In this document: positions 3,878-20,648 of the stretch, piece after piece | How the letters are laid out: each line of letters begins with the position of its first letter | Numbering within the stretch: the stretch's first letter is position 1 | Assembly: GCA_028715985.1 (NCBI GenBank) | Contig: JAQUQR010000001.1 | Coordinates: forward strand, 341,424 to 405,423 | Reading direction: 5' to 3' | DNA length: 64,000 nucleotides | Source: Methanocellales archaeon | GTDB lineage: Archaea > Halobacteriota > UBA148 | The notes under the pieces: model-generated | The model's database searches: none | Seen by the model: the letters and a program-made list of their open reading frames with translations, nothing else | What the model was told of the DNA's origin: nothing | Position numbers and translations under genes: made by a program

Positions 3878-6202
3878 TTAATTACAATATCCTTTTATTA
3901 GATTGCTAAGAACCTCTCTTATTCGGATATCCGGAGCATTTCGAATAAAGTTTGCCAATTTTTCATCGAGCACTCCTTTAACATTTCCAAATTGTTGTGA
4001 AGGTAATTTAACCTTAAGAGCTACCAGTGACAGAACCAAGAGAGTAAGTCTTCTCTCTTCTTTAAGCTTCAAAAGCATTTGCTTAATTCTTGTAATGTTT
4101 GTCTCAAGTGATATATTGTGAATTACAAAATCACAGAGATGCAGAATACCTAGTAACGGCAAGAAAAACATTTCTTTTGGCTCTTCAATATACTTCTGAA
4201 GTAAAAAATCTCCTACACTATTTTTAACGATGCACTTTGCTTTGTTTGAACTATTTACATAAATGTTCCAAAGAAGCCAAAAACCTTGGTCATAGGATGC
4301 AGATTGAATAAGACGATACCACACATCATCACTGATATTGTCCACGATTCTTTTCCTATCATTGGGAGCGAACGAAAGCCATTTTGATAAAAAGTAATTT
4401 ATATTTTCTACCTTGGTATATCTCTTTTCTTCAGCTATTGAATCCTTTCGAGAAATCAAATCACTTAAATCTATTTCACTCAATTTTTCAACAAATCTTT
4501 TAGCCTCTAAAAGATCAACCTGCATAACATTTCCAATAAGTCCACCAAGCCTATAAAGAGAAGCATTTTCTTGAGATATTAATCGAGCTAAATCGGCCTC
4601 AGACAATGCCTTTGCCATTTTCTCTGCAGCAGAAGGAACATTCCAGTTTTGCTTCTGAAAACTGAAAAATAATCTACGAATGGTACTTATAGTGGAGAGA
4701 TTTATGATACTTTTATAATCAGAGATTTCAAAGACATCGAAAAATTTATTTAGTTCAACAATACGACTCAATAAAGGCAGATAACGCTCTATAGTTCTGG
4801 CAGATGAAGATTTCATTTTGTCTTGTATGTTTTTGTAGTTATCCTTGAGATAAAGTGACCTAATTTCCTGTGCTTTTGGACTTTCCATCCAAGAGTTCTT
4901 TCCTTCAACCCATAGCAAGCCATTAATCAAAGAGTGTATTTGTCCTAATGTCCTGTCTTTCACATTTTCTTTTACGATTCTCTGGATATCAATATCATTC
5001 CAAAGAGAGGTCAGAACTTCTTTTGCAAAGTTAGACTTTTCAGTTTCTCTTATCAAATAGGGGTAATAGAAAACACTATACCAGTTAGGCGGTTTCGGTT
5101 TTGACTTTAGATAATCTTTGAATATTTTTATTTGCTCAGATAACTCATTTTCTCTATAAGATGTGACTTTTTGTGACATAGTTTTTAAAATAAGTTCAGC
5201 AAAATTTTCTGGAATGCTTACAAAATCATGCCCTCTCCAACTGGATAACCCTACAAGCCCCTCATCAATTAACTCATATAATGTTTCTCTATTGTCTTCT
5301 AAAAAATTTGTAAGATCATAAACCTTCAAATATTCAAACTGACAAAGTGCTGATAAAGGGAACAAGACTTTTCTACGTTTTGGTATGGATAATCTTATTT
5401 CACCCTTATGATACCATATAAAATTACACACGTGATCATCAGTAATATCGGATAATCTCTGACCTTCAGAATAGTTCCATGAAATAAGACGCAACCAACA
5501 CCAGAAGAGATCGGTGCCCCATCTTTCGGCTACGTCATCTAATTCTGTTTCTGATATTTCATAACGTATTTCTTCTACTTTTATAAACTTCTTGATAATA
5601 TTTTTGACGTGTTCTCTACTCATTTCATCTGGTAATAAATGTACTACACACTCTCGTTTAGTCCCTTCATTGTAGAAGATATCCTCGTCCTCTATATCCT
5701 CTAAAAAAACTTTACCAGTCTTTCGCATAGTAAACAAAAATCTGAGATTTTGTTCACCCTCATCTAAAATTTTCTGAAAAAAAGTTTCGCTTTCTTCACG
5801 ATTTATATGACAATCATCAATGATAATATATCTCAGCGGTCCTTTTTCGAATCTTACTTCTCTAAGAACGATTTCGCTCCAAGCAGTATCTGCTTCAAAG
5901 TTATCATCTACATTAGAATACAATACCTCTTTCTCGTTTTTTACAAGATTATATCCTACTGCATAAGATAACCACGTTTTCCCTGTATTCTTGTCCCCTA
6001 TAAGTATTACAAAATGTTTTTGTTCAAGGTAGTCTAATATGTCTTTAAGTAGATGACTAGGAACATCAATACGTTCATCGGTAAGATCTTTCCAGCTTGG
6101 TTTTAACTCTCGTTCTTTAATTCTCCTAGTAGTCCATTTATACTCTGACTCTTTTGGGATTACTTCCTTCTCAAATATTTTAAACACTTTTAGGGATACC
6201 AT
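3878..6202 (-). CDS. STAND-like P-loop NTPase, 774 residues
   Basis: Walker A GDKNTGKT lies at residues 69-76 and Walker B YIIIDDCH at 125-132, followed by an arginine-bearing FTMRK segment near 155. A basic N-terminal lead (TTRRIKERELKPSW) and a long alpha-helical C-terminal half without recognisable catalytic motifs complete the STAND-type plan of ATPase plus helical repeats. The start follows a GAGGAT Shine-Dalgarno sequence. Base composition is clearly AT-richer than the flanking housekeeping genes, suggesting transfer. A membrane protein gene lies 12 bases upstream in the same direction. Many STAND NTPases are signalling or antiviral switches; that role here is inference from architecture only. 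Confidence 0.6.
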   Translation of the reverse strand: MVSLKVFKIFEKEVIPKESEYKWTTRRIKERELKPSWKDLTDERIDVPSHLLKDILDYLEQKHFVILIGDKNTGKTWLSYAVGYNLVKNEKEVLYSNVDDNFEADTAWSEIVLREVRFEKGPLRYIIIDDCHINREESETFFQKILDEGEQNLRFLFTMRKTGKVFLEDIEDEDIFYNEGTKRECVVHLLPDEMSREHVKNIIKKFIKVEEIRYEISETELDDVAERWGTDLFWCWLRLISWNYSEGQRLSDITDDHVCNFIWYHKGEIRLSIPKRRKVLFPLSALCQFEYLKVYDLTNFLEDNRETLYELIDEGLVGLSSWRGHDFVSIPENFAELILKTMSQKVTSYRENELSEQIKIFKDYLKSKPKPPNWYSVFYYPYLIRETEKSNFAKEVLTSLWNDIDIQRIVKENVKDRTLGQIHSLINGLLWVEGKNSWMESPKAQEIRSLYLKDNYKNIQDKMKSSSARTIERYLPLLSRIVELNKFFDVFEISDYKSIINLSTISTIRRLFFSFQKQNWNVPSAAEKMAKALSEADLARLISQENASLYRLGGLIGNVMQVDLLEAKRFVEKLSEIDLSDLISRKDSIAEEKRYTKVENINYFLSKWLSFAPNDRKRIVDNISDDVWYRLIQSASYDQGFWLLWNIYVNSSNKAKCIVKNSVGDFLLQKYIEEPKEMFFLPLLGILHLCDFVIHNISLETNITRIKQMLLKLKEERRLTLLVLSLVALKVKLPSQQFGNVKGVLDEKLANFIRNAPDIRIREVLSNLIKGYCN

Positions 6203-6214
6203 TTTCCATCCTCA

Positions 6215-6586
6215 TTAATCTATAAATCCTAAAATATTTATTAGTAAACATACACTAACTAGCAGAAAAGTAAAACCCATAATGGCTATTGGATAAAGTT
6301 TTATTCGTCGATGAAGAACCATACGTCGTAAAGAATCAGTATCTTCCCCAACTTTGCTGCGCAAGTCTTCAAGAATAAGACCTATATAAGCCAATAATCC
6401 CGAAGAGCCTAGCAGAAAAGTAATTACCAATTTTACATATATTGATGAGACTTCTTTTGTAAAGATTAGACCAGTTAGCAAATTTATCGATGCACCAATC
6501 AAAGCTCCTGAAAGAATTATATAGAAGGAAGGAGAGAGTAAAAATAATTGGTCCATTTTATTAAACCACGCATTTATATGTCTCAT
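6215..6586 (-). CDS. Small multi-pass membrane protein paired with the STAND-like NTPase
   Basis: 123 residues with three hydrophobic segments long enough to span the membrane (about 17-38, 50-70 and 96-118). A charged loop between the second and third (LRSKVGEDTDSLRRMVLHRRIK) carries many Arg/Lys and is probably cytoplasmic. There is no signal peptide and no motif I recognise. It is 12 bases upstream of the NTPase gene on the same strand, so the two are probably one transcript and may act together, for example as a membrane effector or anchor. That function is not shown by the sequence. Confidence 0.55.
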   Translation of the reverse strand: MRHINAWFNKMDQLFLLSPSFYIILSGALIGASINLLTGLIFTKEVSSIYVKLVITFLLGSSGLLAYIGLILEDLRSKVGEDTDSLRRMVLHRRIKLYPIAIMGFTFLLVSVCLLINILGFID

Positions 6587-6600
6587 TTTTTCATCTCTTT

Positions 6601-6693
6601 TTATTGAGTTTTGGATGAATAATGTCGCCCACCTCGTTTATATCTGACATTATTATCGTTACTTACTTTTAGTAGGTCTTTGTTTGTTCTCAT
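6601..6693 (-). CDS. Micro-ORF (30 residues) heading the NTPase/membrane protein unit
   Basis: ATG at 6693 is preceded by GGGGGAAAAG. The 30-codon frame gives a basic peptide starting MRTNKDLLKVSND and rich in Arg, Lys, Gly and Ser. It stops 14 bases before the membrane protein gene. The good Shine-Dalgarno sequence and position support translation, but a frame this short can arise by chance. Confidence 0.3.
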   Translation of the reverse strand: MRTNKDLLKVSNDNNVRYKRGGRHYSSKTQ

Positions 6694-6893
6694 CTTTTCC
6701 CCCTTTAAGCACAGAGAATTCGGAGGATTTTTTTTGTCTTGCTCAGTTCTTTATTGCTTACATGAGCATAGGTCTCATTGATATTAATATATTTTCTATT
6801 ACGATACTTCTCGAATATATCAGAGATCATTTCTGACCTCTAATAAAAGCTATCATAGAGCTATTTAGAACCGAATACAAATAATCCCAGACA
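6694..6893. other. AT-rich non-coding gap
   Basis: Together with the doubtful micro-ORF this is about 300 bases without a secure gene. It holds several AT-rich runs (for example TTGATATTAATATATTTTC near 6778) that could be the promoter of the island genes on the minus strand. I see no RNA gene or repeat. Confidence 0.4.
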
Positions 6894-7523
6894 TCATCCT
6901 ACTATCCCGCTCACATCATCCCAGTCATACTCATATATGTGCGCTGAGACGCTTACCGAGGTTATCTTTCCAGGAGTTACACCAACTTGCTTTGAAACAT
7001 GCTCCAGCAATCTTGCAAGGGCATACCAGTTGGCAGCTGCTGCACCGTAGAAGTCATGCGATCGGAACACCGCTGTTAAATTCAGCTCGCCCCGAAGCTT
7101 GAAATCCAGTACGACCATGCAGGGCACTTCCTCTGCCTTGGTGTCCTTTGACGGCATCCAGGTGACACAGGTTGCCCTCCTCGAGTTCGGGCTTTCCTTG
7201 AGCTTCCTGATCACGAAATCGATCTGATCTATTCCATTCCAATTACGCAGGCGTTGACCGTAGGTATACACGAAGTCCTGCTCGGTGCCAAAAATTAACT
7301 GCTTAGAGTATTCCTCCAGGCGCTCTGCGTTCCATGCGGTATCCTTTGGGATCTGATCCGCATAGGGATTCTGGATTACGATCATCAGATCAAGCAGCTC
7401 CTTGATCCTGCTGCTTCTTTCATCCGTTATCTCTTCGCCGTTGTTCCAGATCAGGTTTAATCCCCTGTACCAGGCATCGCTGATCGTGTCAGCTCTGATA
7501 AACCTTCCAATTTTCATCACCAT
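6894..7523 (-). CDS. thyA: Archaeal thymidylate synthase (ThyA-type)
   Basis: 209 residues, the short archaeal form. The phosphate-binding Arg cluster SPNSRRATCVTW and the catalytic cysteine in EEVPCMVVLDFK are visible, followed by the nucleotide/folate-site segment RSHDFYGAAAANWYALARLLEHV. It would methylate dUMP to dTMP; in methanogen relatives the one-carbon donor is thought to be a tetrahydromethanopterin derivative rather than folate, which is family knowledge. ATG at 7523 has AGGAG five bases upstream; an in-frame ATG at 7517 is the alternative. It begins 1 base after the marker-14-like gene, so the two are co-transcribed. A dCMP deaminase supplying dUMP is at 55125-55571. Confidence 0.88.
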   Translation of the reverse strand: MVMKIGRFIRADTISDAWYRGLNLIWNNGEEITDERSSRIKELLDLMIVIQNPYADQIPKDTAWNAERLEEYSKQLIFGTEQDFVYTYGQRLRNWNGIDQIDFVIRKLKESPNSRRATCVTWMPSKDTKAEEVPCMVVLDFKLRGELNLTAVFRSHDFYGAAAANWYALARLLEHVSKQVGVTPGKITSVSVSAHIYEYDWDDVSGIVG

Positions 7524-7524
7524 A

Positions 7525-8829
7525 TCATCTCCTCATGCTCATCACGCATTTCCCCCCTCTTATGCCGCCGATGGGCGATTTTGGGGTGCCCAGTGAATGC
7601 AGACACCTTGCAAGCACAGCCGCCCCTCTGGCCAGTCCATCGTCCACGAAGACTAAATCTTGTATACCCAGCTTCTCTCGGATCATTGCGGGTTTGGCAC
7701 CGGTGATGGCACCCCTCCCGGTAATTCCGATCGCTCCTTTGAGCCCATAATCCCATGAAATTTCAATGAGGCTCTTCACCAATTCTGAGGAGACCTTGTC
7801 TATAAGTCCGCCGATATTTCGGCGATCCTCCTCCAACAGCTCGGCGCTTATTTCACTCAGCTCGTTTAATCGGTCTCCGTTCGTTCCGACATCCACTCCG
7901 AGGAGGACGATGCCGGACTCTTTGAGCCCTTTTGGGTTGACCGGGACGGTGCCAAATCTCTTTTCAGAGGTTACCCGTTTGATCTTGATCAGGCGCATCA
8001 CATCCTCTACGTAGCTCTCTGGAATGTTCCCCTCAGAGGAACCTAACAACTGGAGTGCCGTATCTGCAACTGGCTGGGCAAGGGCATCGAATATCGCGCC
8101 AGCCAATCCGCAGTAGCTCCCGACAACGCTCGCATACGGGACCTCAGCGTTGGTGGCTCTTCCTGCCAGCGTCGTCCCGAAGTCGAGCCCTATGCAGGGA
8201 CTCCGGAAGTCCACATGGGTCCACTTAGCTCCCTCTTTGATTCCCGCCAGCACCAGTTCGCTCTCCATCTCATTGGCAACGATCGGCATGGTGCATTCCA
8301 CACCAGCTACCGCACCGTCAAATATTATGTCGTCCATGAATGAGAATCTTTGCAGCGATTCCGGCAAATCGACCTTTCTCATCGCTCCTGTCATCTTTCG
8401 TGGTGGCACTCCTGCTTTCAGGCAACCATCAGCCAGTGCCTTGATGATCTCGCCCACCTCCTCTGGGGTCTCAAATCCTGCTACCACTCCTGTAGACCTC
8501 ACGACGAAGTCCAGATCATTCACGCTGATCATCGCCTTCGTCATGGATCGTAGGAGTATGTTTTTGATGGCTTCGGATATAGCCTCTCTTGACAGTGGTT
8601 GTCCTCTAACCGTTCTCCCGAAAACGTATTCGTTTTCCTTGGGTGGTCTGAGGGATTTGGTCAGTTCAACCGTCTTGTCAAGGAAGTATGTTCTCCCTTC
8701 GATCAGATCGGTGGCAGTTAATATCGATTTGATCGTAGTATTTCCAAGCTCGACGGACGCAACCACATATACGTTATCTCTCAGGATAAATGACGCATCC
8801 ACGAATCTGCTTTTTGCAATTTCTATCAA
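7525..8829 (-). CDS. Methanogenesis marker 14-like protein
   Basis: 434 residues. It resembles the conserved methanogen protein called methanogenesis marker 14, with an actin/hexokinase-like (ASKHA) look: phosphate-loop-like VASVELGNTTIKSILTATDL near the N-terminus, then IGLDFGTTLAGRA, and GAIGITGRGAITGAKPAMI near the C-terminus. Marker proteins of this set occur almost only in archaea with methyl-coenzyme M reductase; the biochemical role of number 14 is not settled to my knowledge. The start is TTG at 8829 with GGAGTGA four bases before it. A TATA-like GGTATAATCC lies upstream near 8857. It heads a two-gene unit with thyA. Confidence 0.75.
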   Translation of the reverse strand: MIEIAKSRFVDASFILRDNVYVVASVELGNTTIKSILTATDLIEGRTYFLDKTVELTKSLRPPKENEYVFGRTVRGQPLSREAISEAIKNILLRSMTKAMISVNDLDFVVRSTGVVAGFETPEEVGEIIKALADGCLKAGVPPRKMTGAMRKVDLPESLQRFSFMDDIIFDGAVAGVECTMPIVANEMESELVLAGIKEGAKWTHVDFRSPCIGLDFGTTLAGRATNAEVPYASVVGSYCGLAGAIFDALAQPVADTALQLLGSSEGNIPESYVEDVMRLIKIKRVTSEKRFGTVPVNPKGLKESGIVLLGVDVGTNGDRLNELSEISAELLEEDRRNIGGLIDKVSSELVKSLIEISWDYGLKGAIGITGRGAITGAKPAMIREKLGIQDLVFVDDGLARGAAVLARCLHSLGTPKSPIGGIRGGKCVMSMRR

Positions 8830-9061
8830 TTTTCACTCCTAAGTATCTCAAAATATGGATTATACCTAATTAATTAATATGTAATCCAGCAAGGTATATC
8901 CTCTCTACCCTAAGCAGCTGAGATTCCCATGAAGCAAGCCAGTGAAGTTTTCACTGTTCCTTTAATTGTGGTTTGCAATTTTTTTTACAAAACTACAATA
9001 AAATAACTATGAACTAAAAAAACATGGATACCATTAGTCGTTGACTGGTCTTTTTTCTTTT
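8830..9061. other. Intergenic gap with the marker 14 promoter
   Basis: Near the left end is an AT-rich block (AATTAATTAATATG on the plus strand) with a TATA-like element facing the minus-strand gene to the left. No RNA gene or repeat is seen. The rest is the downstream region of the large surface-protein gene. Confidence 0.35.
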
Positions 9062-12000: not shown

Positions 12001-13507
12001 AGGCATTGTTCGTGTTGTTTAGGTAGTTGTTGTAGATGGTGTTGCTGTTGCTGGAAATATAGAGGTAGATTCCATAGTCGTTGTCCGAGGCAGTGTTGTT
12101 TGATATGGTGTTGTTGCTGGAAGAGTATAGGTAGATTCCATAGTCGTTGTCCGAGGCAGTGTTGTTTGATATGGTGTTGTTGCTGGAAAACTCGAGGTAG
12201 ATTCCATAGTCGTTGTCCGAGGCAGTGTTGTTTGATATGGCGTTTTTGCCGAGATAGTAGAGGTAGATTCCATAGTCGTTGTCCGAGGCAGTGTTGTTTG
12301 ATATGGTGTTGTTGTAGGAAAGGATAAGCCAGATTCCATAGTAGCTGTTCGAGTTGGCGGTGTTGTTTGATATCGTGTTGTCGTTGCTGAAAAGGATGAG
12401 CCAGATCCCATAGCCGTTGTTCGAGGCAGTGTTGTTTGATAGGGTGTTGTTGCTGGAAGAGTAGAGGTAGATTCCGTAGTCACTGTTCGAGTTAGCGGTG
12501 TTGTTTGATATGGTGTTGTTGCTGGAAGAAGAGAGGACGATTCCATCGCCGTTGTTCGAGGCGTTGTTGCTTGATAGGGTGTTGCTACTGGAAAAGTAGA
12601 GATAGATGCCATTGTCGTTATTCGAGTTGGCGGTGTTGTTTGAGATGGTGCAACCAGAAGAATAGGCGAGCAAAACACCCACCGAACCATCGCTGACATT
12701 CTGACCAGATACCGTAACCCCCGTACTGTTGGCCAGTATCACCTGGCCGGCACCAGCTGGCACTGTTCCACCTACTTTATCCTTCCAGTAGTAGACCGGC
12801 TTGTCATTAACTTTATTAGATGTGTCGATTTCATGGCTGTTATAATCAGATACTGAGCCACCCCATATACCTATTCCATCGTCCCTCATGGTGTTGCCAG
12901 ACAAGGTGTTGTTGCGGGAAGAGTAGAGGTAGATTCCATAGTTGTTGTTCGAGGCGGTGTTGTTTGATAGGGTGTTGCTGCTGGAGGAGAGGCGGATTCC
13001 ATAGTAGTTGTTCGAGACATTGTTGCTCGAAATATTGCAGTAATTTGCTTCATCGAGGTATATACCTGCACTAATAACTCCAGTAGCACCTATTAAAGTG
13101 AATCCACTTAGGTTTACGTAATCTGCGGTTACGTCAAATACATGGTCATTTGAATTTTGAGCCTGAACTAGAGTAAAATCAGAACCATTCTCAGATTCTA
13201 TGGTTAAACGCTTGTCCACAACTATGTTTTCAGTGTAGGTCCCGTCCCTCACGATTATGGTGTCTCCATGACTTGCATTATCAATGGCCGCTTGGATCGT
13301 TGGATAATCATCAGGGACGTAGATTATAGATACTGAAGATGTCGTTAGGTCGGGTCTCTTATCATTCACCATTCCATTCTGGGTATCGCCTGTTGGACTC
13401 ACTGGATTATTCGCTGCGATAGCTATACCGTTAAGTGAACTGCCCACAACAGCCAAAATTATAAACAAAGCATAAAGCTTTGTGATTTTGTTTTTCATAG
13501 GCTGCAC
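9062..13507 (-). CDS. Giant secreted NosD-repeat/glycosidase-like surface protein
   Basis: 1481 residues. A signal peptide (LYALFIILAVVGSSLNGIAI) is followed by a right-handed beta-helix: DDYPTIQAAIDNASHGDTII, then about 17 repeats of ~22 residues of the NosD type (NNTASDNDYGIYLYSSSNN), residues ~60-505. Next come jelly-roll-like, probably carbohydrate-binding modules with the thrice-repeated signature GGFCWV...GCTFYLDDIKY (560-990). An (alpha/alpha) toroid resembling glycoside hydrolases of unsaturated-uronate type follows (roughly 1000-1370). A C-terminal beta domain (WNSTWNTTATWSGYSGD) ends in TYNDWIPAIRLE. Very many N-x-S/T sites suggest heavy N-glycosylation. It stands alone. Likely extracellular polysaccharide binding or trimming; catalysis is unproven. 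Confidence 0.75.
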   Translation of the reverse strand: MQPMKNKITKLYALFIILAVVGSSLNGIAIAANNPVSPTGDTQNGMVNDKRPDLTTSSVSIIYVPDDYPTIQAAIDNASHGDTIIVRDGTYTENIVVDKRLTIESENGSDFTLVQAQNSNDHVFDVTADYVNLSGFTLIGATGVISAGIYLDEANYCNISSNNVSNNYYGIRLSSSSNTLSNNTASNNNYGIYLYSSRNNTLSGNTMRDDGIGIWGGSVSDYNSHEIDTSNKVNDKPVYYWKDKVGGTVPAGAGQVILANSTGVTVSGQNVSDGSVGVLLAYSSGCTISNNTANSNNDNGIYLYFSSSNTLSSNNASNNGDGIVLSSSSNNTISNNTANSNSDYGIYLYSSSNNTLSNNTASNNGYGIWLILFSNDNTISNNTANSNSYYGIWLILSYNNTISNNTASDNDYGIYLYYLGKNAISNNTASDNDYGIYLEFSSNNTISNNTASDNDYGIYLYSSSNNTISNNTASDNDYGIYLYISSNSNTIYNNYLNNTNNAYDDGNNTWNISKTEGTNIIGESYLGGNHWSDYVGEDLDGDGLGDTPYDIPGGTNKDYLPLVTPTATSAKELALEHLKEIMDKYNEFFDVYTDRDAAGNHYTPGYYNGDSNMEFNDNWLDNPHSGTSCIKVTWNGAAGNDGYKWNGVMWQHPEGNWGDTPGYGYNLTGATKLTFWARTDEPGLKVQFLVGYENDASGVVLINETTDGWVELYPNWTEYEINLSGRDLSDIAGGFAFLFNMENDPDPDGCTFYLDDIKYDKVTLYDPDKPYKDSCGPVSSGLITLANSWTRYAINLTDENLSHIIGGFCWVANKDNNPDGCTFYIDDIKYEYEDRNFNVYTDAQQNWAGVYWQDPENNWGNCSTGGYNLTDATNLSFWAKGDNGTEKIEFKIGGIGRDPDTDQQIALYPDSLHPAVSTGIINLTNEWEQYTINLTGKNLSHVIGGFCWVTNTTLNPNGCTFYLDDVKYNKQRLDELRFLVSYETTSASEDKYMKNVAYTYDNALVMLAFMERGSEEDWRRAKILGESFIYCQNHDRYFNDGRLRNAYQAGDIADHQGKARLPGWWNDSEQKWFEDTGSVGSGTGNMAWAMIALLCYYEATGNTTYLESAERLGDWIYNNTYDTRYYGGYTGGYEGWGANQTNLSLKSTEHNLDVYVAFMKLYNATNDSVWQSRAIHAKNFVMSMWNEDDEHFWTGTKDDETINKDVLPADVNTWGVMVLGEEYGAGVKWVEDNCKVTSCPEGCGFKGFDFNNDKDGVWFEGTAHMCIAYQIMNETNKSDDYISEIRKAQTSANNSNGKGIVAACHDGVTTGFDEVYNNRLHIGATSWYIFAEQKYNPYWQINTSDTIPYQFFDTGPGTYPSISGTHNGTITPSHDIDVSYMYTYPCNGTGGHTRYVKIWNSTWNTTATWSGYSGDYHNITFDSSFVLRAGETYNYTIRTGSYPQIIHATSKAVTGGTITCAQFTDANGRTYNDWIPAIRLE
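12010..13050 (-). repeat. Tandem 66-bp coding repeats of the beta-helix
   Basis: Near-identical units of 66-69 bases carry TGTTGTTTGATATGGTGTTG on the plus strand and encode the NosD repeats. Repeats from about 12060 to 12330 are almost identical at DNA level, which suggests recent expansion or homogenisation. The array is interrupted by a non-repeat insert (about 12640-12890, with WGGSVSDYNSHEID and KPVYYWKDKVGG), as is common in NosD-type helices. Confidence 0.8.
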
Positions 13508-16360: not shown

Positions 16361-16993
16361 GTGTCAATGGCTCAAGTGCATAAAATCGCCTACAATGCGA
16401 ATTCATATCTCATTGCCGCAAAACGACCGATCTTAGTGGACGTTGGAATGCATTGCGAGTTGGCACTTCGATCTATAGAGAAAATAATTGCACCGAATGC
16501 TCTTGAATATATCGTTTTAACGCACTGCCACTATGATCACACATTCGGAGCCTTAGAGCTGGCAGAGCAAACCGGTGCCAGAATAGCGATTCATGAGAAT
16601 GATGCTGAGCTACTGGGCGATGATCGTGCAACGGTTTCAGACCTTTTTGGCGTGCGATCGCCAAACATCAAGCCAGATGTGATATTGCAGGGCGGTGAAA
16701 TCTTAAATCTGGGTGATGTAGAGTTGGAGGTTATTCATACGCCCGGACACACTCCAGGAGGCATCTGTCTATATGGATCAAAGCAGTTGTTTTCCGGCGA
16801 CACCATTTTCCCAAATGGCAGTGTTGGGAGAACTGACTTAGAAGGAGGAGATTCAAATCAATTAATAAAATCGATCAAGCTGTTGACGACACTGGATGTT
16901 GAGACTCTATACCCTGGGCATGGTGATGTGACCAACAAAGATGTCAATGCCCAGATCAGGGATTCGCTCAGATTTGCGGAAGAGGTTTTATAG
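16361..16993 (+). CDS. MBL-fold metallo-hydrolase (glyoxalase II-like)
   Basis: 210 residues with the metal motif THCHYDH (HxHxDH) at about residues 54-60, HTPGHTPGG, SGDTIFPNGSVGRTDLEGGD and the terminal LYPGHGD. These ligands match the dinuclear-metal MBL superfamily, nearest to hydroxyacylglutathione hydrolase-like proteins. The real thioester or lactone substrate is unknown. The start is GTG 16361 or ATG 16367. It is divergent from thiC with only 34 bases between them. Confidence 0.8.
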   Translation: MSMAQVHKIAYNANSYLIAAKRPILVDVGMHCELALRSIEKIIAPNALEYIVLTHCHYDHTFGALELAEQTGARIAIHENDAELLGDDRATVSDLFGVRSPNIKPDVILQGGEILNLGDVELEVIHTPGHTPGGICLYGSKQLFSGDTIFPNGSVGRTDLEGGDSNQLIKSIKLLTTLDVETLYPGHGDVTNKDVNAQIRDSLRFAEEVL

Positions 16994-17225: not shown

Positions 17226-17771
17226 ATGATATTAGATGTTAACACATGGGGGGATTCTGGTTATGATTTGCTAAAGAAATGGCTAATAACCATAGGTGTC
17301 AAAACAGATGATGGTATCAAAATATGGCATAGAAAGGATTATAATGGCGAAGAAAAGATGTTAAAGGATTTTCTTGAGTGGTTCGTGATAAATAAAGAGA
17401 GAGAAATCATTGGTTTTAACATTCTAAAATCTGATATGCCTCTTTTACTGCTTAAGTCACAATCAGTAGGTAAAACCAAAGAGCTATATCAAAGGCTTTT
17501 TAAATCTAATATTGTTGATTTGTTTTGTATTTTGACTTTTTTGAATAATGGTACTATGTGTTCATTAGAAATGTGGTGTAAAAAGCTTGATATAGTTTAC
17601 AAAGGAAAACCAAAACATCCGCAAACTACCTCTGGAAAAATTATATTTGGTACAGATCATTTGATTAACGACCAAGATACGTTAGAATATCAAAAAAGAG
17701 AACTTATTGCCACTGATGAGCTACATCAAAAAATAGTCGAATTAATAAAAGAGAGATATGCCATTCTATGA
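17226..17771 (+). CDS. Degenerate DnaQ/PolB-like 3'-5' exonuclease-fold protein (tentative)
   Basis: 181 residues from ATG 17226, AT-rich. The three exonuclease motifs can be traced: MILDVNTWG (Exo I, with Asn where Glu is expected after the first Asp), IIGFNILKSDMPLL (Exo II, N...D present) and YQKRELIATDEL (Exo III, with Glu in place of the usual Asp). Two of the four DEDD acids are therefore changed, so it may be inactive or use other residues. A strong terminator-like hairpin follows at 17833. I would not assert a function; it could be an unrelated hypothetical. Confidence 0.4.
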   Translation: MILDVNTWGDSGYDLLKKWLITIGVKTDDGIKIWHRKDYNGEEKMLKDFLEWFVINKEREIIGFNILKSDMPLLLLKSQSVGKTKELYQRLFKSNIVDLFCILTFLNNGTMCSLEMWCKKLDIVYKGKPKHPQTTSGKIIFGTDHLINDQDTLEYQKRELIATDELHQKIVELIKERYAIL

Positions 17772-17899: not shown

Positions 17900-18319
17900 T
17901 TATTGTTTTGATTTTATGGATTTATATAACTTCTTAAACTCTGGAAAATTTTTAGGGTCCTCAATTTCTTCTTTTGAATAGTGTTCTAGATATATCTGTT
18001 CATACCACTTCACAACAGCATCATCAAAAAAACCTGATATCTTTTTATTTTTTATAAATCGCTCATTAACGAAAAACGCATATTCTTCGATGGAATTAAA
18101 TAATAAGCTATCCCACTCTCTTTTTGTTTCCTGATCTTTGTTTTTATAATCTTTGTAAAGCTCTAATTCTGTTTCTTTGATACTTCTAAAAACTTCATTT
18201 AATAATTGCAATTGTCTTGTTTTACTATTCTCTATTAAGGCAATCCCATTTAGGATAAGACCCAAACCTGCAACTGACGATGCAAAGACTACGGCAATTA
18301 AGGAAATATCCCAACTCAT
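17900..18319 (-). CDS. Membrane-anchored small hypothetical protein
   Basis: 139 residues. One N-terminal transmembrane helix (ISLIAVVFASSVAGLGLILNG) is followed by a charged, helical cytoplasmic part rich in Lys, Glu and aromatic residues, resembling the DUF4760 group of prokaryotic proteins of unknown role. It starts at ATG 18319, which overlaps the stop of the small upstream gene (ATGA), so translation is probably coupled. AT-rich, within an accessory island. Confidence 0.5.
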   Translation of the reverse strand: MSWDISLIAVVFASSVAGLGLILNGIALIENSKTRQLQLLNEVFRSIKETELELYKDYKNKDQETKREWDSLLFNSIEEYAFFVNERFIKNKKISGFFDDAVVKWYEQIYLEHYSKEEIEDPKNFPEFKKLYKSIKSKQ

Positions 18320-18444: not shown

Positions 18445-18744
18445 TTTTAACCTCTGGTTAATATAAGTAGGTTTAAATAATCTTCTTTATAAAACTTTTG
18501 GTGCGCTCCTTTATCGTTGCACATAACAGCTTTTAAATAGAGAAATCAATCCCAAATTCGATTAATCCCCTTTAACTTTCGCTATGTAACATCTCCGAAA
18601 GTAAAGCAAGCAACTTACACAAAGCAATGTATATCTAAAGGGTTGAGGGCAGTACAGTAATATATAGTATAATATAGTAACATGACTATGTTAACATGAA
18701 AAATGGATTTGATAAGTAAAACGGCGCATTGAGAGAAGAAGGGG
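18445..18744. other. Divergent intergenic region with TATA and inverted repeats
   Basis: Three hundred bases without a gene. On the plus side an AT-rich TATA stretch (about 18658-18680) leads into the repeats at 18678-18697. On the minus side a TATA-like CTTATATT near 18462 would serve the 42-residue gene. No RNA gene is evident. Confidence 0.4.
18678..18697 (+). promoter_or_regulatory. TAACAT inverted/direct repeat at the TULIP unit promoter
   Basis: TAACAT (18678-18683) and ATGTTA (18688-18693) form an inverted repeat around GACT. A further TAACAT overlaps at 18692-18697. The site lies immediately downstream of a TATA-rich run and about 50 bases before the GTG at 18745, a good position for an operator. 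Confidence 0.35.
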
Positions 18745-19071
18745 GTGATTAAAACGAAAAAAGATGGAGAGAAAAAGCCCTTGACAAAAAAGGCTATGGA
18801 AGAACTTCATGAGAAAATAAAAAAGGACCCGAAATTGGCAGGAGAATTTGCGAGGGATTTTGAGGGGGGCTTGGCATCTCAGGGCTATTTTCTCACTGAA
18901 GAATTTCGGAAAAAGTTAGCTATGGAAGCTGAAAGCAAAATGAAAAATGCCCTGAAAAAAATTCCTGCAAGTGATAAAAAGCTCAACAAGAAAATAGAGA
19001 GCGGAGAGGAAATAAAAGTAAAAGTGAAAATTGACAGGGAAAAGAAAACTAAAGACATAAAAATAAAATAA
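18745..19071 (+). CDS. Small charged hypothetical protein upstream of the TULIP-like gene
   Basis: 108 residues from GTG 18745 behind GAAGAAGGGG; ATG 18796 is an in-frame alternative. Residues ~15-55 (EELHEKIKKDPKLAGEF, then SQGYFLTEEFRKKL) follow a pattern of KDP...L...F plus a G-hydrophobic-T/E turn, reminiscent of NHLP/Nif11-type leader domains of peptide natural products. The similarity is short. The tail is almost entirely Lys/Glu/Ile. It lies 17 bases before the next gene and is surely co-transcribed. A chaperone, leader-like or accessory role is speculative. Confidence 0.5.
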   Translation: MIKTKKDGEKKPLTKKAMEELHEKIKKDPKLAGEFARDFEGGLASQGYFLTEEFRKKLAMEAESKMKNALKKIPASDKKLNKKIESGEEIKVKVKIDREKKTKDIKIK

Positions 19072-19088
19072 GATGGGAGGTCAAAGCG

Positions 19089-20648
19089 ATGAGAACTGGT
19101 GGCTATGATTTGGTTCTGGAAACAAATGAAAGATTTGTTAATAAATTACTTCTGGCGGCCTATTGTATGGGTAAATTTCCAAAAAGCAAGTCCGGATCAT
19201 ATACCCTGCCCATTCCGAATGTTCCGGCATCCTTGGTTGAATTTATAACCGTCGATTATGACCTTGAATTCAAAGTGCCCACTATTGATTTTATCAGTAA
19301 GGATGCAACAAAAATATTACTTTCTGCGGAAACTTATCTCACTGTATTGGGTGGCATTGAGCTTAAATTGGATGTACTTTTTTCGATTGAAACCTCGGTG
19401 ACATATGATCAAACCACAAGACAGTTGTCCATCGATTTCGACCACCCTAATGTGGACATTGAAATAAATGATGCTCGTTTTCCCCAAAATGTACTGGATA
19501 AACTGAATGAAATACTTTCAATCGCGATTGACGAGTATCTGACTGAGGACGTATCAACCATATCCATCAGCCCTGTTCTTTATGCGTTATCATTGCCCCA
19601 CACCAGTAATGAGTTGACAATTGGCTTGGGCAATATAAAGACTACAAACGATATCGCTGCAGTGAGTTTTAACTTTTTAGGTTACAATGGCGGCAGTATC
19701 CATGATGTCGCTGATTTTACCGGTGGAAGCGATTTTTCGGCCGGAATTAGCGAAAGCGCAATGCATCAAGTCTTTGATTTTTGGTGGAAGCATACGACCT
19801 ATCCGAAAAGCATCGCCAAAGCTGAAAGCCAGTCTTTGGATACGTCAGAATATGATTTCTGGTTTGACTGGATTTTGACTACCATTGCTGTGTTATTTCC
19901 GGGCCTTGGCACCATCATATCTGCTGTAGCGAGTCAGATGATTGATATTGATGAATTAAGGGTAGAGTATGGTGGAAAAATTAATTTCGGGAAACCAGAA
20001 CTCGATTTGCTGAACGGGAATAAAATACGCGTTTCGGGTAAAGTTAGGGCAGATATTAGTGTTGGACTTTTCGTGAAAATTGTCATAAACTATCTATTTG
20101 GAAGTGATACCTACAACAAGAACATCGGAAGTTTTAGCGTTAGAAATATGTCGATAAACTATTCGGCACTGGGGACTGTATACCTCGATAATCAAAACAG
20201 GTTAATGGCGGATATTGAAGATATGGATATCTCGTTGGGAGTTATGGAGTGGCTCATGGGCGCTCCCGCGTTTTTAATTGAATTGGTACTGAAATGGTTA
20301 GCTGATAAAATGGTTGACGAATTGCCGCCAATAGTGTTATCGTCGTCGTTGGTTTCTTTAGACATTCCAGGTACTCAGTTGTCCTTGGGTATTGACTCAG
20401 CAAAACTTGAAGGAACTGATGATGAAGCCATCGTTAATGCCACTCTTAGAATCAAGGGGCTGGAGAACTATTGCAGTCCGCTATATATTGCAAATAGGAA
20501 CCGCGCATGTCTTGAAGTCCATAAAAGAGATTGTGCCTGGGTGGGCAAGATGTTGGAAAAGCATAAAGTCCCTTACTTTTTCTTAGACGAAGCTCGGAAA
20601 GATGGGTATGATAATTGCCATTATTGCCTGGGCGGTTCAGAAAGGTGA
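19089..20648 (+). CDS. Probable TULIP/P47-like protein with C-terminal Ada-like zinc module
   Basis: 519 residues, ATG 19089 after GGGAGGTC. No signal peptide. The opening MRTGGYDLVLETNERFVNKL resembles the start of P47/OrfX-type TULIP proteins, and the long alternating strands (IELKLDVLFSIETSVTYD) plus two hydrophobic helical stretches (ILTTIAVLFPGLGTIISAVA near 265; APAFLIELVLKWL near 395) fit a lipid-binding TULIP fold. Residues 461-516 form a separate module with H478, C482, C510 and C513 and the pattern NR..C.EVHKRDC.W...FFLDEA...GYD.C.YC, as in Ada-type metal-binding domains. The fusion is unusual. Function unknown; lipid or membrane interaction is inferred. Confidence 0.55.
   Translation: MRTGGYDLVLETNERFVNKLLLAAYCMGKFPKSKSGSYTLPIPNVPASLVEFITVDYDLEFKVPTIDFISKDATKILLSAETYLTVLGGIELKLDVLFSIETSVTYDQTTRQLSIDFDHPNVDIEINDARFPQNVLDKLNEILSIAIDEYLTEDVSTISISPVLYALSLPHTSNELTIGLGNIKTTNDIAAVSFNFLGYNGGSIHDVADFTGGSDFSAGISESAMHQVFDFWWKHTTYPKSIAKAESQSLDTSEYDFWFDWILTTIAVLFPGLGTIISAVASQMIDIDELRVEYGGKINFGKPELDLLNGNKIRVSGKVRADISVGLFVKIVINYLFGSDTYNKNIGSFSVRNMSINYSALGTVYLDNQNRLMADIEDMDISLGVMEWLMGAPAFLIELVLKWLADKMVDELPPIVLSSSLVSLDIPGTQLSLGIDSAKLEGTDDEAIVNATLRIKGLENYCSPLYIANRNRACLEVHKRDCAWVGKMLEKHKVPYFFLDEARKDGYDNCHYCLGGSER

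Follow-up and report, generated by a model that had tools for sequence, protein, structure and literature searches.

An archaeal protein family of predicted TULIP fold with an Ada-like C-terminal module and a small partner gene

TULIP proteins are known in several forms. They include the two-lobed eukaryotic proteins BPI, LBP and CETP, the clostridial proteins P47 (Clostridium_P47, PF06597) and OrfX2, which bring two TULIP lobes together in a prokaryotic protein (PMC6791001), and the bacterial YceB/DUF1439, DUF4403, DUF2140 and DUF2993 proteins, which are described as associated with membranes or secreted to the envelope (PMC6791001, PMC5507252). The parts of these two reviews drawn on here list eukaryotic and bacterial families, describe archaeal sequences as still to be mined and name no archaeal member, and no description of archaeal TULIP lipid carriers was found in the open-access literature. 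Two further elements of known kind are relevant, namely the Ada_Zn_binding (PF02805) module of thermonucleases and MBL hydrolases, and the leader domain shared by NHLP precursors, nitrile hydratase alpha and Os1348 (TIGR03793, PMC2887384, PMC7726476). The archaeal gene pair described in this work is made of parts of these known kinds. The open-access literature searched does not describe such parts in combination, in archaea or with a constant small partner. A preliminary description of this DNA had named no described system of such make-up.

The pair lies in a stretch of 64,000 nucleotides (the window) of the 1.5-Mb genome of a Methanocellales-type archaeon, the closest named relative of which is Methanocellaceae archaeon UBA148. 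It consists of two forward-strand ORFs, the first (positions 18745-19071, GTG start, 108 aa) coding for the small partner and the second (19089-20648, ATG start, 519 aa) for the TULIP-fold protein. In the 17-nt gap between them, a ribosome-binding-like sequence, GGGAGGTC (19074-19081, forward strand), is located 7 nt before the ATG; in several relatives stop and start codons overlap by 4 nt where the window has this gap. The GTG start of the small gene is uncertain and lies inside a GGGGGTGAT stretch that can itself be read as a ribosome-binding site. Ka/Ks values against the nearest relative were 0.27 for the small gene, 0.20 for the large gene and 0.14 for a neighbouring MBL gene. Both genes of the pair are under purifying selection, and on account of its value of 0.27 the small gene is considered real.

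An AlphaFold model of the large protein was built from an alignment of eight sequences and is of moderate quality (mean pLDDT 65, pTM 0.51). In this model the features of a tubular TULIP lobe (helix, long strands forming a curved antiparallel sheet, long C-terminal helix) are predicted to occur twice. The first lobe (19089-19718, forward strand; residues ~1-210, boundary approximate) would comprise a helix at 14-26, long strands at 33-120 and a helix at 133-154, and the second (19734-20456, forward strand; residues ~216-456) long strands at 285-383 and a helix at 394-410. The second lobe begins with a conserved MH..FDFWW..TT..K signature (225-240) and carries a hydrophobic helical insert (252-279; hydrophobic helical segment 262-280). 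When the model was compared with the PDB, the best eleven matches were all TULIPs (probability 0.99-1.00), among them BPI (E = 2.0e-12), LBP (3.0e-11), CETP (8.2e-11), P47 (8.4e-10) and OrfX2 (1.1e-5); SPLUNC, YceB, Mdm12 and extended synaptotagmin were matched as well, while the best non-TULIP protein had a probability of 0.09. High-confidence matches to TULIPs only thus bear out the two TULIP lobes that had been suspected from the sequence. As TM-scores of the best matches were only 0.25-0.34 by query length, the model makes the fold class clear and not the packing of the lobes.

The eukaryotic BPI, LBP and CETP gave the best full-length fold matches, yet the archaeal protein is only ~10-12% identical to them, lacks a signal peptide and has an extra zinc tail and a dedicated small partner gene. 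YceB was matched by one archaeal lobe (2.0e-3); in contrast to the bacterial YceB/DUF1439, DUF4403, DUF2140 and DUF2993 proteins, the present family is archaeal and without a signal peptide. By sequence, no TULIP family of Pfam matched the members, and neither protein of the pair produced a match above cut-off in Pfam, NCBIfam, PHROGs or PADLOC. A search of PDB sequences with profiles of the TULIP protein and of the small protein returned nothing convincing. Spec3, Hydantoinase_B and similar sub-threshold matches were dismissed as chance.

A homologue search in 394 Halobacteriota genomes yielded eight full-length homologues, to which order-level searches added four further complete genes and a fifth that is truncated at the end of its contig. 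The family hence amounts to 13 loci (12 full length, one contig-end fragment) in the Halobacteriota genomes searched. Full-length homologues span several archaeal families with identities of 31-87%, and their distribution is patchy (2% of sampled genomes); a contig scan with the single protein as query found one near relative. The survey covered sampled genomes of one phylum plus viral contigs, phages and plasmids. Judged from sequence and model, the archaeal family is real and of TULIP fold class. The small gene had been predicted to be a constant neighbour; it proved a near-constant one, directly upstream in 10 of the 13 TULIP loci. The preliminary description thereby passed both of the checks it had set itself, on the fold and on this neighbour. 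All confident matches to the small-protein profile in the sampled genomes were directly upstream of a TULIP gene, with no confident copy elsewhere in the genomes searched. Since the flanking genes vary by lineage, the pair can be regarded as a unit. The three loci that lack the small gene (G452 and two from family f7) group in one clade (100/99 support), a pattern that points to one loss or one absence only; as this clade does without it, the small partner is not strictly required. A TFIIB-like gene precedes the TULIP gene in two genomes (G101 and G238).

Our main reading, to which we assign a probability of roughly one half, is that the TULIP protein is a soluble carrier of lipids or other hydrophobic ligands which is translationally linked to a dedicated partner. 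We infer the carrier or presenter role from the fold, and the chaperone or adaptor role of the partner from gene order. The large gene would give rise to a soluble, two-lobed protein of BPI/CETP shape, which most likely binds a long hydrophobic molecule, such as a lipid, in its tubular lobes and then carries or presents this ligand. Contact with the membrane would probably be made by the hydrophobic helical insert in its second lobe. One zinc ion would be held by the Ada-like module through H478, C482, C510 and C513, and the module would most likely act as a docking or stabilising end and have no catalytic part. The product of the small gene, which is translated immediately ahead of the TULIP gene, would be a dedicated partner that combines an NHLP-leader-like helical domain with a beta hairpin; most likely it binds to the TULIP protein and acts as its chaperone or adaptor.

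The C-terminal module (20484-20645, forward strand; residues ~466-519) had been described as an Ada-type HxxxC...CxxC element, and its four ligands, H478, C482, C510 and C513, are present as claimed and do not vary among the 12 full-length homologues. Their spacing is Ada-like, and a short extension follows the CxxC. Ada_Zn_binding matched weakly in four of the eight tails scanned (best E = 0.0021, below the gathering cut-off) and did not match the window's own tail. The PF02805 module that occurs C-terminally in thermonucleases and MBL hydrolases shares this spacing and the GY.xCxxC ending with the archaeal tail, which differs from it in its sub-gathering score and its longer ending. With a profile of the tail, a strong group (E < 1e-25) consisting of the TULIP proteins and three other proteins was recovered in Halobacteriota, together with a weak group that represents the ordinary Ada-like module. 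According to Pfam the three other proteins are peptidases of types S8, C13 and, just under cut-off, M6. Their tails have the four ligands at the same kind of spacing and end, like those of the TULIP proteins, in EY(D/N)TG or GSxR, and upstream of the tail they are unrelated to the TULIP protein. Another peptidase-like C-terminus with the tail was found at a contig end in G441. No resemblance to the small partner was seen in the genes that lie upstream of the tailed peptidases. Being shared with peptidases and other proteins, the tail is a portable end-module which is not peculiar to TULIP proteins.

The S8, C13 and M6-type proteins (L025, L026 and L027) also share, by eye, the region before the tail, with an SPDI...NRG stretch; an IDLSxLP stretch is present in two of the three, and the region was left unnamed by the Pfam scan. 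The C13 peptidase with the zinc tail (L026) is encoded on the Methanomethylovorans hollandica plasmid NC_019972, where the gene pair occupies 5997-8411 and 8462-8836. The small gene preceding this peptidase shares the N-terminal FVDLAP..NWAHPC segment of the peptidase and may code for a pro-domain-like or inhibitor-like partner.

Because the tail is shared with peptidases lacking signal peptides, a sorting role is the main rival explanation for it. The tail would then be a sorting or anchoring end by which the TULIP protein is exported or attached to the envelope without an N-terminal signal peptide, the small protein would be an export chaperone, and signal-less peptidases would be marked for the same route. 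It fits this explanation that one long tail terminates an S8 subtilase, a C13 and an M6-type peptidase otherwise unlike the TULIP protein, and that no hydrophobic N-terminus of signal-peptide strength was detected in any TULIP member or in the peptidases bearing the long tail. The weak-group modules of related archaea are likewise C-terminal, on short proteins with strongly hydrophobic and in several cases lipobox-like N-termini where the frame could be followed. However, neither a sorting enzyme nor a secretion system was apparent next to these genes, the tailed peptidases come without the small gene, and the module could be a mere stabilising cap. We regard a sorting role as possible but rather unlikely, and retain the carrier with its dedicated partner as the preferred reading.

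The genomic setting of the pair bears on a different explanation. An AT-rich island had been noted around it, and GC content is indeed 31-40% at 17-21 kb versus about 45% on both flanks. By ORF reading, the island lies between the gene of an MBL-fold hydrolase (16361-16993) and an operon of several genes, from 20988 onwards, for an Mrp-type antiporter. The relative G001 has the pair in the equivalent position, with other filler around it. G045, a relative at family level, lacks the pair genome-wide, and the site between the MBL hydrolase gene and the Mrp operon is filled there by a TATA-binding-protein-like gene (L104, 2488-3030), indicating that the unit comes and goes. Upstream of the pair, two imperfect 13-nt direct repeats (18673-18699, forward strand) had been called operator-like; the copies exist (18673-18685 and 18687-18699, 85% alike), but they are missing from the same stretch of the closest relative, so that the term is unsupported. 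Two other ORFs of the island, at 17226-17771 (forward strand) and 17900-18319 (reverse strand), have no counterpart at the equivalent place in G001; one of them shows weak similarity to a DNA-polymerase exonuclease (PHROG 262, 0.0013), and the other has a hydrophobic N-terminus.

That the pair is mobile or phage-derived cargo without a lipid-specific role would agree with the AT-rich island, with the 2% occurrence and with the replacement seen in G045 between the same neighbours. Yet viral contigs, phages and plasmids contained no relatives of the TULIP or small protein, only tail-like matches; there was no viral structural match, and the genes have been under long-term purifying selection. 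This explanation is therefore judged improbable.

Other parts of the window hold features of their own. A reverse-strand gene at 3878-6202 codes for a protein of 774 aa in which Pfam recognises an nSTAND3 NTPase domain (9.3e-08, above cut-off). It is adjoined by a 123-aa ORF with hydrophobic stretches (6215-6586, reverse strand), and both lie in a separate island of 33% GC. These two genes possibly constitute a defence system; their PADLOC match was only weak (PD-T4-4_A, 3.2e-4). At 12046-12650, a 66-nt unit is repeated nine times in tandem (80% alike) with strong GC skew, and G001 has a gene for a 522-aa surface-like protein where the window holds these repeats.

In the preliminary description the large protein was assigned to the P47/OrfX kind. 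The TULIP fold and the likeness to P47 and OrfX2, which lies in the two TULIP lobes and gave significant fold matches, were upheld, whereas membership of P47 was not: PF06597 matched no family member and nothing else in the 394 genomes, and BPI, LBP and CETP ranked higher by fold. This comparison is one with Pfam and the fold library. The archaeal family further differs from P47/OrfX2 by its zinc tail and the absence of a toxin-cluster context. That the protein is a P47/OrfX-like accessory of a toxin or serves in inter-species conflict, which would also suit the missing signal peptide and the patchy distribution, is very improbable, given that no orfX-like or toxin-like gene was recognised at any locus when flanking ORFs were read by eye, that PADLOC gave no match and that BPI/CETP are closer in fold.

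The small protein is predicted to form helices at 15-27, 29-37, 39-45, 52-72 and 75-85 and a beta hairpin at 92-107. Its KDP-L-F segment, which had been noted as leader-like, is present and recurs as a DPxL-like form among homologues. The N-terminal half follows the pattern DP-x-L-xxx-F-xx-D-xxxx-L-xxx-G, in register with the DPxLxxx(F/L)xxDxxxxLxxxG motif of the NHLP, nitrile hydratase alpha and Os1348 leaders, and resembles these in its helical prediction, too. Comparison by hhalign with nine genuine sequences of NHLP and nitrile hydratase proteins, collected with a consensus query, gave a probability of 50% with six small proteins and 35% with ten. After shuffling of columns, the forward score was reached in none of 400 and none of 1000 cases and the reverse-order score in 2 of 1400. 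NCBIfam gave no NHLP match for the small protein. Fold matches were weak; Os1348 and the SonA borosin precursor (Foldseek E about 7-8) were the only leader-type precursors among 15. A remote relationship of the small protein to NHLP leaders is likely but unproved. The leader-like label thus holds as a modest statistical resemblance and does not extend to leader function, since the ten small proteins contain neither a Gly-Gly cleavage motif nor a Cys/Ser/Gly-rich core, and no maturation or modification enzyme or peptidase-transporter was recognised among the flanking ORFs read beside the pair. For these reasons, and because conservation across families extends to the C-terminal half, a RiPP-like precursor whose hydrophobic product is handled or stored by the TULIP protein is highly improbable, despite the hhalign scores above all 1400 forward shuffles and the weak matches to Os1348 and SonA. 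Unlike known NHLP and Os1348 leaders, the small protein is paired with a TULIP protein.

Archaeal membranes consist of ether lipids, and the presence of a BPI-type TULIP among archaea bears on the age of the fold and on its range of cargo. With the constant small partner there is a two-component system that lends itself to testing, and a clear localisation hypothesis follows from the shared zinc tail. In a broader and distinctly speculative version, the proteins would be BPI-shaped archaeal lipid carriers with an obligate adaptor, and the zinc tail a signal-peptide-independent sorting end shared with archaeal peptidases. If true, this would add a lipid-transfer system that serves ether-lipid membranes as well as a new export or anchoring tag.
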